A stretch of 40,149 nt of DNA from Ignavibacteriales bacterium (GTDB taxonomy: Bacteria; Bacteroidota; Ignavibacteria; UBA10030), in assembly GCA_026390595.1 (NCBI GenBank), contig JAPLFQ010000028.1:1-40149 (forward strand), read 5' to 3'. Positions 17,741 through 19,278 of this stretch are shown here, one piece after another; position 1 is the stretch's first letter, and each line of letters begins with the position of its first letter. Made by a program: the position numbers and the translations under genes. The notes under the pieces are model-generated. The model had not been told where the DNA came from. It ran no database searches and saw nothing but the letters and a program-made list of their open reading frames with translations.

Positions 17741-17816
17741 AAAAACCTGACAAATGGTTCCTAGCGGACGACAAACCAGGGAAAAACCTAAATTTCTCCG
17801 GGTCATAGTCCTTCGT

Positions 17817-17965
17817 CTCAGCCCAAAAAACGGGCTTCGCTCAGGGCTAGATGGTTCCAACTCTGAAAATACATGGGGTCGTAGCTCAGCCCTTCGGCTC
17901 GTGCCAACAAACGGCACTCGCTCAGGGCCAGGTGATTCAAGCAGTGAAAATTCATGGGGTCGTAG
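17817..17965 (+). repeat. Two tandem units, each ending in a truncated copy of the tRNA-Asp 5' end
   Basis: Unit 1 (17817-17884, 68 bases) and unit 2 (17885-17965, 81 bases) both begin CTCAGCCC, carry a small hairpin (GCCC-A6C-GGGC or GTGCC-A-rich-GGCAC), then CGCTCAGGGC, then a common end finishing ATGGGGTCGTAG. The end of unit 2 is the true tRNA start. A 26-base stretch (17864-17889 versus 17945-17970) differs at one base only. After GTAGCTCAG the upstream copy leaves the tRNA sequence and enters the repeat, so it cannot fold as a tRNA. A weaker GGGTCATAG (about 17800-17808) may be an older third copy. Confidence 0.75.
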
Positions 17966-18030
17966 CTCAGTTTGGTTAGAGCGCCTGCCTGTCACGCAGG
18001 AGGTCGCGAGTTCGAGTCTCGTCGGCCCCG
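17956..18030 (+). tRNA. tRNA-Asp (anticodon GTC)
   Basis: The full cloverleaf is visible. The acceptor stem is GGGGTCG (17956-17962) with CGGCCCC (18023-18029); a D arm GCTC...GAGC follows. The anticodon stem-loop is CCTGC-CTGTCAC-GCAGG with anticodon GTC. The T arm GCGAG-TTCGAGT-CTCGT has the invariant TTCGA. The discriminator G is at 18030, as expected for aspartate. The terminal CCA is not fully encoded (G then CAA). Truncated copies of its 5' end lie upstream, and a split copy of its 3' half lies 290 bases downstream, beyond a GIY-YIG gene. Confidence 0.97.
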
Positions 18031-18038
18031 CAAAAAGA

Positions 18039-18067
18039 AGCCCTCCCTCACCTCTGGAGGGCTTTTT
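18039..18067 (+). terminator. Rho-independent terminator of tRNA-Asp
   Basis: AGCCCTCC (18039-18046) pairs perfectly with GGAGGGCT (18056-18063) around a nine-base loop and is followed by a run of T. It starts nine bases after the tRNA and precedes the GIY-YIG gene. Confidence 0.85.
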
Positions 18068-18081
18068 CATTTGACTGCTGC

Positions 18082-18351
18082 ATGCCTCACTTCGCCTATA
18101 TAGTCCAGAGCGACTCCGATCATTCCTTTTATGCAGGATCATCGCATGACCCTGTTCTAAGATGTCAACGGCACAACGAAGGCTGGACAATCTCCACCAA
18201 AGGCAAAGGACCGTGGAGGCTGGTCTGGGCAAAGGAGTTCCCCACAAAAACTGAGGCGCTTGAATTCGAACGCCACATTAAGAAGATGAAAAGCCGTGCC
18301 TTCATAGAAAAGCTGATTCGTGACGCAGGAGGTCGTCCCGATGGCCACTAG
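18082..18351 (+). CDS. Small GIY-YIG nuclease family protein with a tRNA-derived C-terminus
   Basis: An 89-residue single-domain GIY-YIG protein. The core is 'FAYIVQSDSDHSFYAGSSHDP' with the two GIY/YIG-like strands (AYI and YAG), then an Arg in 'VLRCQRHNEG', 'TKGKGPWRLVWAKEF', and the conserved Glu in 'TEALEFERHIKKMKSRAFIEKLI'. This places it in the small YhbQ-like group (COG2827). It starts 14 bases after the tRNA-Asp terminator and has no obvious ribosome binding site. Its last residues (DAGGR then PDGH) are encoded by 13 bases identical to the tRNA-Asp anticodon-arm/variable region (18323-18335 versus 17994-18006) and by the left arm of a perfect palindrome whose loop supplies the TAG stop. 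The family cleaves DNA in repair, restriction or homing contexts. What this member does is not known; its position suggests an element that inserted at the tRNA. Confidence 0.85.
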   Translation: MPHFAYIVQSDSDHSFYAGSSHDPVLRCQRHNEGWTISTKGKGPWRLVWAKEFPTKTEALEFERHIKKMKSRAFIEKLIRDAGGRPDGH

Positions 18352-18383
18352 GCCATCGGGAAGTCTCGTCGGCCCCGCAAAAA
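18323..18383 (+). repeat. Split copy of the tRNA-Asp 3' half interrupted by a perfect 11-bp palindrome
   Basis: The bases 18323-18335 match tRNA positions 17994-18006 exactly (13 bases), and 18362-18383 match 18015-18036 exactly (22 bases, through the discriminator, CA and the following A-run). Between them the eight tRNA bases CGAGTTCG are replaced by a 26-base hairpin: TCCCGATGGCC (18336-18346), loop ACTA, GGCCATCGGGA (18351-18361). The GIY-YIG stop codon falls at the loop. Together with the intact tRNA upstream this brackets the GIY-YIG gene with direct repeats of the tRNA 3' end. Confidence 0.85.
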
Positions 18384-18416
18384 AAAGAATCCCCCCTCTT
18401 TGGGGGGATTTCTTTT
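18384..18416 (+). terminator. Terminator after the duplicated tRNA 3' end
   Basis: AAAGAATCCCCCC and GGGGGGATTTCTTT form a strong G/C stem with A and T flanks, one base bulged. It lies in the same position relative to the duplicated tRNA end as the terminator of the true tRNA, but its stem sequence is different. Confidence 0.8.
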
Positions 18417-18501
18417 CGTGTATCGTCCTGACATCGCTGTGTCTCGATTGCCCTCCGAAGCCCGTTTCTCAGGGCGCAGGTGGGTCAGCCCCGCAGAAAC
18501 G

Positions 18502-18529
18502 AAAACAGCACCCCGAGGGGCTGTTTTTG
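18502..18529. terminator. Third terminator-like hairpin of the zone
   Basis: AAAACAG, a CA bulge and CCCC pair with GGGG and CTGTTTT (18517-18527). It is preceded by CAGCCCCGCAGAAACG (18486-18501), which resembles the GGCCCCGCAAAAA that precedes the first two terminators. It may be a third, degraded copy of the tRNA-end-plus-terminator arrangement. It could also end transcription of the converging RAYT gene. Confidence 0.6.
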
Positions 18530-18564
18530 TTTCCTGTAATCGGCCAGAGACTCCTGTCTATCCT

Positions 18565-18589: not shown

Positions 18590-19159
18590 CTAGGCCTCCT
18601 TCGCCAAATCATTTCCCGGGTTCTCATTCTCCTCGAACCATTTGCTGACATTGTTCATGATATACATTCGGATACGCCCTAGATCCTGACCGTCTCGGAT
18701 GATGTGCTCGTAGAAACGAGATTGCCAGGCAAACGTTGAGCAGCCTTCAGAATGAATTCGCTTTGAGGATGCAGATTTGAACGAGCGAATGATCGTCGAT
18801 AAGGATCCACTCACAGGCCTGCTGAATTGCTCGCACCTTCGAGGCAAGACATTCTTCTGTCGGGACACGGCAGGCCGTGTCCCGACTTGATCGACGAGAA
18901 CAATAATCCCATGCATATGATCGGGCATTATCACAAATTGATCGAGGGTCGCGTGGGGAAAATGACCCGGGATCTCCTCCCAACAGCCTTTCACGATCTC
19001 TCCGATCGTTGAGAGTCGGATACCACCTTGGCTGATCTCCCCCAGAAGAGGCTTCCGGTCCTTCACGCAAAGGGTAACGTAGTATCCACCGGCCTGCGTG
19101 TAGTCGAATCCTCTTAACCTAATCGACCGCCGGTGATTTCTCATCGGGCTATAGTACAT
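18590..19159 (-). CDS. REP-associated tyrosine transposase (RAYT, IS200/IS605-related Y1-HUH)
   Basis: The ATG at 19159 gives the usual family start, 'MYYSPMRNHRRSIRLRGFDY', and 189 residues. A start at 19219 would add 20 unconserved residues. The HUH metal-binding motif is HMH at residues 81-83 (VIMPDHMHGII) and the catalytic tyrosine is about Y150 (SRFYEHIIRD). RAYTs are single-copy relatives of IS200/IS605 transposases that nick single-stranded REP palindromes and are thought to spread or maintain them. Here several REP-like palindromes lie close by, and one perfect example is inside this gene. The preserved active-site residues argue that it is not a decayed copy. Confidence 0.9.
   Translation of the reverse strand: MYYSPMRNHRRSIRLRGFDYTQAGGYYVTLCVKDRKPLLGEISQGGIRLSTIGEIVKGCWEEIPGHFPHATLDQFVIMPDHMHGIIVLVDQVGTRPAVSRQKNVLPRRCEQFSRPVSGSLSTIIRSFKSASSKRIHSEGCSTFAWQSRFYEHIIRDGQDLGRIRMYIMNNVSKWFEENENPGNDLAKEA
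18859..18886. repeat. Perfect 13-bp REP-like palindrome inside the RAYT coding sequence
   Basis: GTCGGGACACGGC (18859-18871), loop AG, GCCGTGTCCCGAC (18874-18886). On the minus strand it encodes residues ~92-101 of the RAYT (VGTRPAVSRQ), a variable stretch after the HUH motif. The reading frame is kept. A related but imperfect sequence opens the intergenic palindrome at 20701-20731. Confidence 0.85.
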
Positions 19160-19278
19160 AGAGTGCCTCAGATATAAAGAGATCCCTGCCAATGAGGCAC
19201 ATTCCTCAGCCACACGCAACGAAATTGAATTGGCAAAGAGATATCGATCAAATCACGGGCACAAGCCCACGCAGAACG

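Follow-up and report, generated by a model that had tools for sequence, protein, structure and literature searches.

The locus and its parts

This study concerns a small unit at a tRNA-Asp gene in a 40,149-nucleotide stretch of DNA from an Ignavibacteriales bacterium (GenBank assembly GCA_026390595.1, contig JAPLFQ010000028.1, positions 1 to 40,149; this whole stretch is called the window here), in which the gene of a GIY-YIG nuclease stands between an intact tRNA gene and a broken second copy of the tRNA 3' half. Taken together with similar units in other genomes, it suggests an apparently undescribed and widespread miniature selfish element on tRNA genes. An earlier note, made from the letters of the window, had described a tRNA-Asp with its terminator followed by an 89-residue GIY-YIG gene that ends in a tRNA copy, and ARAGORN, Rfam and the Pfam family PF01541 agree on that arrangement. 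The parts of the unit are as follows.

17956..18031, + strand: intact tRNA-Asp (GTC), called by ARAGORN and by Rfam (RF00005, 69.6 bits)
18035..18067, + strand: terminator (inverted repeat and T run), 3' of the intact tRNA-Asp
18082..18351, + strand: GIY-YIG nuclease gene, 89 amino acids (open reading frame; PF01541)
18320..18335, + strand: broken tRNA-Asp copy, piece 1, tRNA nt 36-51 with one mismatch, overlapping the 3' end of the nuclease gene
18336..18361, no strand: 26-nt palindrome TCCCGATGGCCACTAGGCCATCGGGA (from the sequence, by pattern match), which replaces tRNA nt 52-59, part of the T arm
18362..18378, + strand: broken tRNA-Asp copy, piece 2, tRNA nt 60-76
18382..18450, + strand: terminator and trailer of resident type, aligning with the tRNA-Asp trailers of the relatives G003 (after a further insert) and G015

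The identities of 13 and 22 bases to which the note had pointed are exact. The first (17994-18006 with 18323-18335) extends to 16 nt with one mismatch from 17991 and 18320, and the second (18015-18036 with 18362-18383) continues five bases past the end of the tRNA. When the 3.3-kb locus L011 was searched, the pieces of tRNA nt 39-51 and nt 60-76 had expect values (E) of 0.003 and 1.1e-5. That the last residues of the protein are encoded by tRNA sequence holds for D-A-G-G-R, while the final P-D-G-H and the stop codon come from the palindrome, the stop codon lying within its loop. The view that insertion had left or rebuilt the tRNA end is likewise correct in part: a copy of the 3' half is present, 300 nt from the intact tRNA-Asp, but it is not clean, as palindromes interrupt its arms, and at part of the loci described below the intact tRNA sits downstream of the gene. 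No integrase gene is present in the unit (17956-18383), as the note had said; it holds one identified gene, the GIY-YIG reading frame, and has no room for an integrase. Nor was a group I intron found in the window, where Rfam at its gathering threshold gives only the tRNA.

The nuclease

The 89-residue protein matches PF01541 with E 4.7e-14 and 52.9 bits, against a curated cut-off of 22.6. Residues Y6, Y17, G19, R27, H31 and E63 are invariant among 27 aligned sequences, which covers the two Tyr motifs, the Arg and the Glu of the active site, and the AlphaFold model is a confident single domain (mean predicted local distance difference test score 88.6). Thirteen homologue pairs were chosen for the ratio of nonsynonymous to synonymous substitution rates (dN/dS); 12 gave output, nine of them with values of 0.02-0.17, and in the other three dS was saturated. 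Because of the invariant residues, the confident single-domain model and the low dN/dS, the protein is taken as a maintained nuclease domain that is probably active. The nearest solved structures by sequence are UPF0213 (1zg2, E 7.5e-17) and SLX1 (8.3e-10), and by fold 1zg2 (2.9e-5), SLX1 (8.4e-4) and the catalytic domain of I-TevI (0.25). The window protein matched no PHROGs family; two homing-endonuclease families of that collection were each matched by 2 of 27 relatives, with a best E of about 1e-4.

Related loci and their linkage to tRNA genes

A search of 100 related genomes gave a match in 76. Among the matches listed, 30 loci and 60 further stretches were taken, down to about E 2.5e-9, the last stretch repeating an earlier locus; a scan of genome contigs with a motif of the Asp clade added the best 80 of at least 468 relatives, and a scan of viral contigs added four loci. 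After removal of duplicates and of another GIY-YIG branch there were 166 loci, chosen by protein similarity alone; they are related to each other, and the counts below are not counts of independent events. Left out were L001-L004, which belong to the other branch, and hits below 40 bits, as well as L100, L131-L137 and L140, which are the same records as earlier loci; L005 and L010 are the same locus as L011, and L006, L008 and L009 have no match to the family profile.

At 136 of the 166 loci ARAGORN found a tRNA within 250 nt of the gene, at a median distance of 47 nt; the unit in the window is one of many. The nearest tRNA was on the strand of the gene in all 136 cases (one call, L188, is without determined identity), upstream of the gene at 103, downstream at 30 and between at three. 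Pieces of the tRNA outside the tRNA itself (E <= 0.01, within 500 nt of the gene) numbered 268, in 120 of these 136 loci; the same search with the reversed tRNA gave 0 and with a shuffled tRNA 2. Six other GIY-YIG matches in the genome of the window (L001-L003, L006, L008 and L009) served as a control, and no tRNA was present in their fetched flanks of up to 1.5 kb (just 202 nt upstream of L003).

As labelled in their records, the hosts are Bacteroidota (including isolates of, for example, Niabella, Pontibacter, Marinifilum and Aquimarina), Ignavibacteria, Balneolales, Cloacimonadota, Calditrichaeota and Neomarinimicrobiota, together with single metagenome-assembled genomes (MAGs) labelled Desulfobacterales, Peregrinibacteria and Woesearchaeota. 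The last of these (L143) pairs in the protein tree with L147, from a Cloacimonadota MAG of the same sample series, and we therefore suspect that its label is a binning error. Among the viral contigs, L211 has the full arrangement at a tRNA-Pro, L212 and L214 have no tRNA, and L213, apparently a twin of L212, has none by ARAGORN. Three long palindrome-swapped tRNA copies lie near the end of the viral-classed contig of L211 (IMGVR_UViG_3300031707_006572), which could be a carrier or a prophage edge. A plasmid collection gave two distant records, and a phage collection none at E 1e-5.

The other 30 of the 166 loci have no tRNA on the same strand within 250 nt. Rfam was run on 16 of them and gave one weak tRNA, at L159. 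By eye, a reading that had no control, 24 of 29 showed apparent tRNA-derived stretches, several being half tRNAs or at contig ends; L037 and L043 were ambiguous, none was seen at L026, L212 and L214, and the thirtieth, L213, was not displayed.

Isotype fidelity

Clades of the protein keep one tRNA isotype across phyla. A first tree of 101 proteins, of which 86 were labelled with an isotype and 15 were not (L100 and rows under 50 residues were left out), required 16 isotype changes against a mean of 55.6 for shuffled labels; a second tree of 190 proteins, 164 labelled and 26 not (hits of the second set below 60 bits were left out, and 18 loci had their isotype assigned by hand), required 29 against 109. 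None of 200 shuffles was as low in either case, in trees of about 75 columns where few forks are resolved and near relatives group by descent alone. Asn was a single clade in each tree; Asp, a single clade in the first tree, needed three changes in the second; Met was a single clade in the second; Val and Gly were scattered. The class is widespread and faithful to isotype, and the patterns described here and below support well the view that it would be mobile.

The broken tRNA copies

In the broken copies one or more arms of the tRNA are partly replaced by palindromes, and the position of the break goes with the isotype. Of the gaps, 13 of 17 for Met lie in the anticodon arm (27|45 or 28|44) and 27 of 32 for Asp in the T arm (51|60 or 50|59), as do three of four for Gly and all three for Phe; Pro(cgg) and Leu(taa) copies break mostly in the anticodon arm, and those of Ala, Arg, Ser and Pro(ggg) are mixed, with the D loop included. 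A stem of at least 5 pairs was found in 113 of 165 gaps, and 108 of the 165 were above shuffles at p < 0.05. In sixty-four gaps (among the 113 or the rest) CCCGA lies close to the start and TCGGG close to the end; TGGCGCC..GGCGCCA is seen in several Pro copies. At L161 ARAGORN labels palindrome-swapped copies of tRNA-Met as tRNA-Ala(TGC).

The pieces are also oriented in a regular way. Among the 138 that lie upstream of the intact tRNA, 68 begin at the tRNA 5' end and six finish at the 3' end, whereas of 283 downstream pieces 119 finish at the 3' end and five begin at the 5' end (pieces with E up to 0.2 were taken, some short ones among them being chance). This is as would be expected from a unit with its own intact tRNA that inserts into a tRNA gene. 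Tandem arrays of two or more units, each with a nuclease gene and a tRNA copy, occur at L142, L150, L158, L174, L202 and L207. At L149, a unit at a tRNA-Asp in the MAG labelled Desulfobacterales, the tRNA ends in an encoded CCA and so does the 3' piece of its copy, which points to a copy made from the local tRNA.

Around the unit in the window, three further features are present.

17807..17968, + strand: an 81-nt tandem repeat in two copies (79% alike), the second copy overlapping the intact tRNA-Asp at its end
about 18436..18530, + strand: 3' copy, probably older and decayed (CTGTGTCTCG..GTCAGCCCCGC), and a terminator of its own, recognised by eye from its recurrence in relatives
18590..19219, - strand: RAYT-like Y1 transposase gene (RAYT, REP-associated tyrosine transposase; REP, repetitive extragenic palindromic), downstream of the unit at a distance of about 240 nt (PF01797; NF047646 with 58 bits, below the cut-off of 80)

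Inside the 81-nt repeats, tRNA-Asp nt 1-15 recur at 17875-17889, and a palindromic stretch comes next at about 17890-17927.

Occupied and empty sites

Relatives lacking the gene, which the earlier note had called for as a source of the empty site, were found in the genus of the window (G003) and in Pontibacter (L221 and L228). Presence and absence at comparable sites in close relatives, a mark of free-standing homing endonucleases, was thus seen both between the window and G003 and between pairs of Pontibacter.

G003 has a comparable locus without the nuclease gene, with upstream 5' copies, the tRNA-Asp and one shared downstream gene; the 5' tRNA copies upstream of tRNA-Asp are present in another GIY-less congener, G002, as well. 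Past an insert that adjoins its tRNA, the trailer of G003 aligns with the window sequence 3' of the broken copy and not with that 3' of the intact tRNA, where the terminator at 18035..18067 has no alignment with it. The trailer of G015, in which the gene is present, aligns to the window in the same way. Among 21 complete tRNA-Asp genes, a GAGGG allele of the T stem was found in none of 7 with the gene or a remnant and in 8 of 14 without, a census uncorrected for relatedness.

At the tRNA-Ala loci of Pontibacter (n = 39) a search by hidden Markov model gave 10 intact genes, 2 remnants and 27 without either, and a further remnant was seen by eye at L219. L233 is 91% identical to the empty L228 over a 1.6-kb stretch that runs up to the tRNA and through it, and L217 is 80% identical to the empty L221 over 0.9 kb downstream. 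The trailer of L217 3' of the copy resembles the trailers of the empty loci L221, L222 and L227. Although the tRNA-Ala is the same at these loci, the trailers vary from locus to locus. A TCCC..GGGA hairpin was seen by eye in 8 of 9 inspected Pontibacter copies.

A model in which an altered tRNA allele makes the host resistant to the nuclease, hinted at by the Asp census, was not supported in Pontibacter: its tRNA-Ala is identical with and without the gene, which speaks against protection of the host by a resistant tRNA allele such as a classical homing site would need. As a separate observation, nine Pontibacter genomes have half tRNA-Ala genes (nt 29/30-75) some 9-21 kb away from the intact one (for example G124:C2:315272 and G111:C3:123764, the loci L245 and L246); these look like the ends of islands integrated at the same tRNA.

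Interpretation and alternatives

The explanation that we favour, with a probability of roughly 0.62, is a selfish, homing-like mini-element that lives in or beside tRNA genes and moves by recombination that the nuclease starts and homology to the tRNA directs. A unit would comprise the gene of a single-domain GIY-YIG protein and a palindrome-swapped copy of the neighbouring tRNA, beside the intact tRNA. The nuclease would break DNA at a tRNA locus and so start recombination; repair from a locus that bears the element, with the two tRNA copies as homology arms, would copy in the nuclease gene and retain one intact tRNA, and the resident's tRNA half and trailer would end up in, and 3' of, the broken copy, a trailer pattern seen in two cases, the window and L217. 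Unequal repair could give tandem arrays, and loss of the gene could leave broken copies behind. Cleavage and its position, transfer and the role of the palindrome are all putative steps here, and the trailer junction could be the real target site.

The earlier note had already held that a nuclease-carrying unit was inserted at the tRNA. This is upheld by the patchy presence of the gene at comparable sites, the tandem arrays, the many isotypes and several phyla involved, and the resident-type trailer 3' of the broken copy in two cases; the module of about 350 bases would then itself be what moves. More tentatively, the units may be a new class, a minimal mobile element of about 300 bp that uses the host tRNA gene as its arms, chooses its target by those DNA arms rather than by its protein, and is spread across a dozen isotypes and several bacterial phyla.

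A number of observations weigh against a homing-like mini-element. Synteny between the window and G003 consists of the 5' copies and one shared gene at unlike distances downstream of the tRNA, 3.7 kb in the window, where the RAYT gene and two others intervene, against about 0.3 kb in G003. In Pontibacter the tRNA-Ala(GGC) is identical over 75 nt in 39 of 41 genomes, whether the gene adjoins it or not, and a strict pattern of a copy with a palindrome matched only 6 of the 14 loci that hold the gene or its remnant (and none of the 33 that lack both); at L216 and L242 the trailers after the tRNA and after the copy are alike, which fits a simple tandem duplication. Sixteen of the 136 tRNA-linked loci have no tRNA piece at E <= 0.01. 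Some of these are at contig ends and some do show weaker or longer-range traces; those away from contig ends are L025, L038, L046, L052, L064, L075, L090, L195 and L203. Free-standing homing endonucleases usually, if not by strict definition, have a separate DNA-recognition domain, and Pfam recognised none besides GIY-YIG in the 89-residue protein. Finally, palindromes of the type TCCCGA..TCGGGA are enriched over a reversed control in six of nine host genomes tested, with 44 against 3 in the genome of the window by one count and 40 against 1 by another (three of them near tRNA genes) and 85 against 0 in G101, while in the other three they are not or hardly enriched (Pontibacter G104, 10 against 14; G105, 10 against 6; G107, 4 against 4). 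Because they are so common across six of the nine, the palindrome in the copies may be of other origin, and it may be a nuclease substrate, a repair footprint or simply a common genome-wide palindrome.

The closest alternative retains the same element and changes the nuclease, which would be structure-specific in the manner of SLX1 and cut the extruded hairpin of the donor copy, with the tRNA flanks guiding the ends to any tRNA gene of that isotype and isotype fidelity being a matter of the DNA arms rather than of what the protein recognises. We regard this as rather unlikely. It would accommodate palindromes in most gaps despite their varied sequence (stems of at least 5 pairs in 113 of 165, the CCCGA..TCGGG form in 64, TGGCGCC..GGCGCCA in several Pro copies), UPF0213 and SLX1 as the closest solved structures, a single-domain protein, and an intact Pontibacter tRNA that is the same with and without the gene. 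It is weakened because cutting the donor copy would more probably destroy the element than spread it, because the palindrome of the Asp copies swaps only part of an arm, and because such palindromes are common away from tRNA genes in some hosts.

It is improbable that the nuclease acts on the tRNA as RNA, as a toxin-like or regulatory protein for which the intact tRNA would be a supply and the arm-swapped copy a decoy. In many copies of one isotype the stretch that is replaced sits at one and the same position, as an RNA cleavage site would, but the copies decay, usually lacking part of the acceptor stem (by eye, the third L202 copy and L235), and occupied and empty Pontibacter have the same tRNA. 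As far as is known, the described GIY-YIG enzymes are DNA nucleases, which also counts against an RNA target.

Still less probable are two further explanations, which we rank about equally. One is that the units are a by-product of REP/RAYT activity, palindromes spread by a Y1 transposase having landed in tRNA copies. The RAYT-like gene at 18590-19219 (NF047646 58 bits, under the cut-off of 80) and the enrichment of TCCCGA palindromes across the window's genome would fit, but palindrome positions recur for each isotype across phyla, the palindrome is not enriched genome-wide in Pontibacter (10 against 14), and a relative of the window's RAYT was present at one of the 166 loci (the search covered this RAYT type alone, in flanks of at most 1.5 kb), namely the window itself. 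For the last reason RAYT was also rejected as a part of the unit. The other is a conserved host gene that stays beside its tRNA by vertical inheritance, with which isotype fidelity and purifying selection would agree. Patchiness within a genus (10 intact, 2 remnant and 27 none among 39 Pontibacter loci), tandem arrays and two isotypes in one genome (Ser at L007, Asp in the window) speak against it, as does the Asp unit of the congener G004 (L102), where 1.7 kb around the unit shares just the tRNA and the gene with the window.

Least probable of all is that the gene is cargo of tyrosine-integrase islands at tRNA 3' ends, for although nine Pontibacter genomes have half tRNAs at some 9-21 kb from the same tRNA-Ala, and half tRNAs, by eye, adjoin some GIY genes, the window copy is 300 nt from its tRNA without space for an integrase, the 5' copies and tandem arrays are unlike attL and attR, and a GIY gene or remnant was at two of eight fetched exact-match Pontibacter half-tRNA loci, one of them (L253, the place of L198) by a run of N.

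If the homing-like mini-element is real, it would be a common and very small selfish element on essential genes, overlooked since its protein resembles a generic GIY-YIG nuclease and its DNA marks resemble tRNA debris, and it would offer a testable route to the duplication and decay of tRNA genes. There is also a practical hazard: automatic annotation can take palindrome-swapped copies for real tRNA genes, as ARAGORN did at L161.

Comparison with known systems

No description of a bacterial unit consisting of a GIY-YIG gene and a palindrome-swapped tRNA copy was found in searches of open-licence PubMed Central papers. Group I introns of bacteria are selfish DNA in the anticodon loops of tRNAs, and are alike in that they occupy tRNA genes; they differ in that the units here keep an extra intact tRNA and are not spliced out, and there is no intron in the window. 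Elsewhere in the window's genome, Rfam places a group I intron before the 3' part of a tRNA-Asn (L004 887-1198, G000:C13), with an apparent HNH frame seen by eye; its 5' exon was not found with three test strings, and a distant GIY-YIG gene lies about 300 nt downstream of the tRNA-Asn 3' part. Asn copies in relatives break at 36|47, which would be near the usual intron site.

Tyrosine-integrase elements use a tRNA gene as target and leave a copy of the tRNA end, and both traits recur here. The units differ from such integrative elements in their size of about 350 bp without room for an integrase, in the interruption of the copy by a palindrome, and in their 5' copies and tandem units. UPF0213- and SLX1-type GIY-YIG domains are nearest to the window protein by sequence and fold. 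We know of no reported linkage of these to tRNA genes, and in the window's genome L001-L003 (69-77 bits with the family profile) stand away from tRNA. A 2006 survey of the GIY-YIG superfamily names tRNA in three places, once for a methylase fusion and twice in its references (PMC1564403).

In function the nearest known system is SegB, a GIY-YIG homing endonuclease that T-even phages carry as a free-standing gene in their tRNA cluster and that is reported to break within tRNA genes and to drive tandem amplification of the tRNA region (PMC13096335, PMC2988022). Frequent association with tRNA, within 1 kb, is also reported for phages, and the motif given for SegB is RAWTSGAAC (PMC13096335, PMC2988022). 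The other strand of this motif, GTTCSAWTY, would be close to the tRNA T loop, the region that is broken in the Asp, Gly and Phe copies. SegB resembles the units in that a GIY-YIG gene lies beside tRNA genes. It is phage-borne, and no isotype preference is reported for it there; the units stand on bacterial chromosomes, with a single-domain protein of about 80-100 residues, isotype-faithful clades and palindrome-swapped tRNA copies, in which they differ from it. If our interpretation is right, the units would tie phage tRNA-gene nucleases of the SegB type to bacterial chromosomes.

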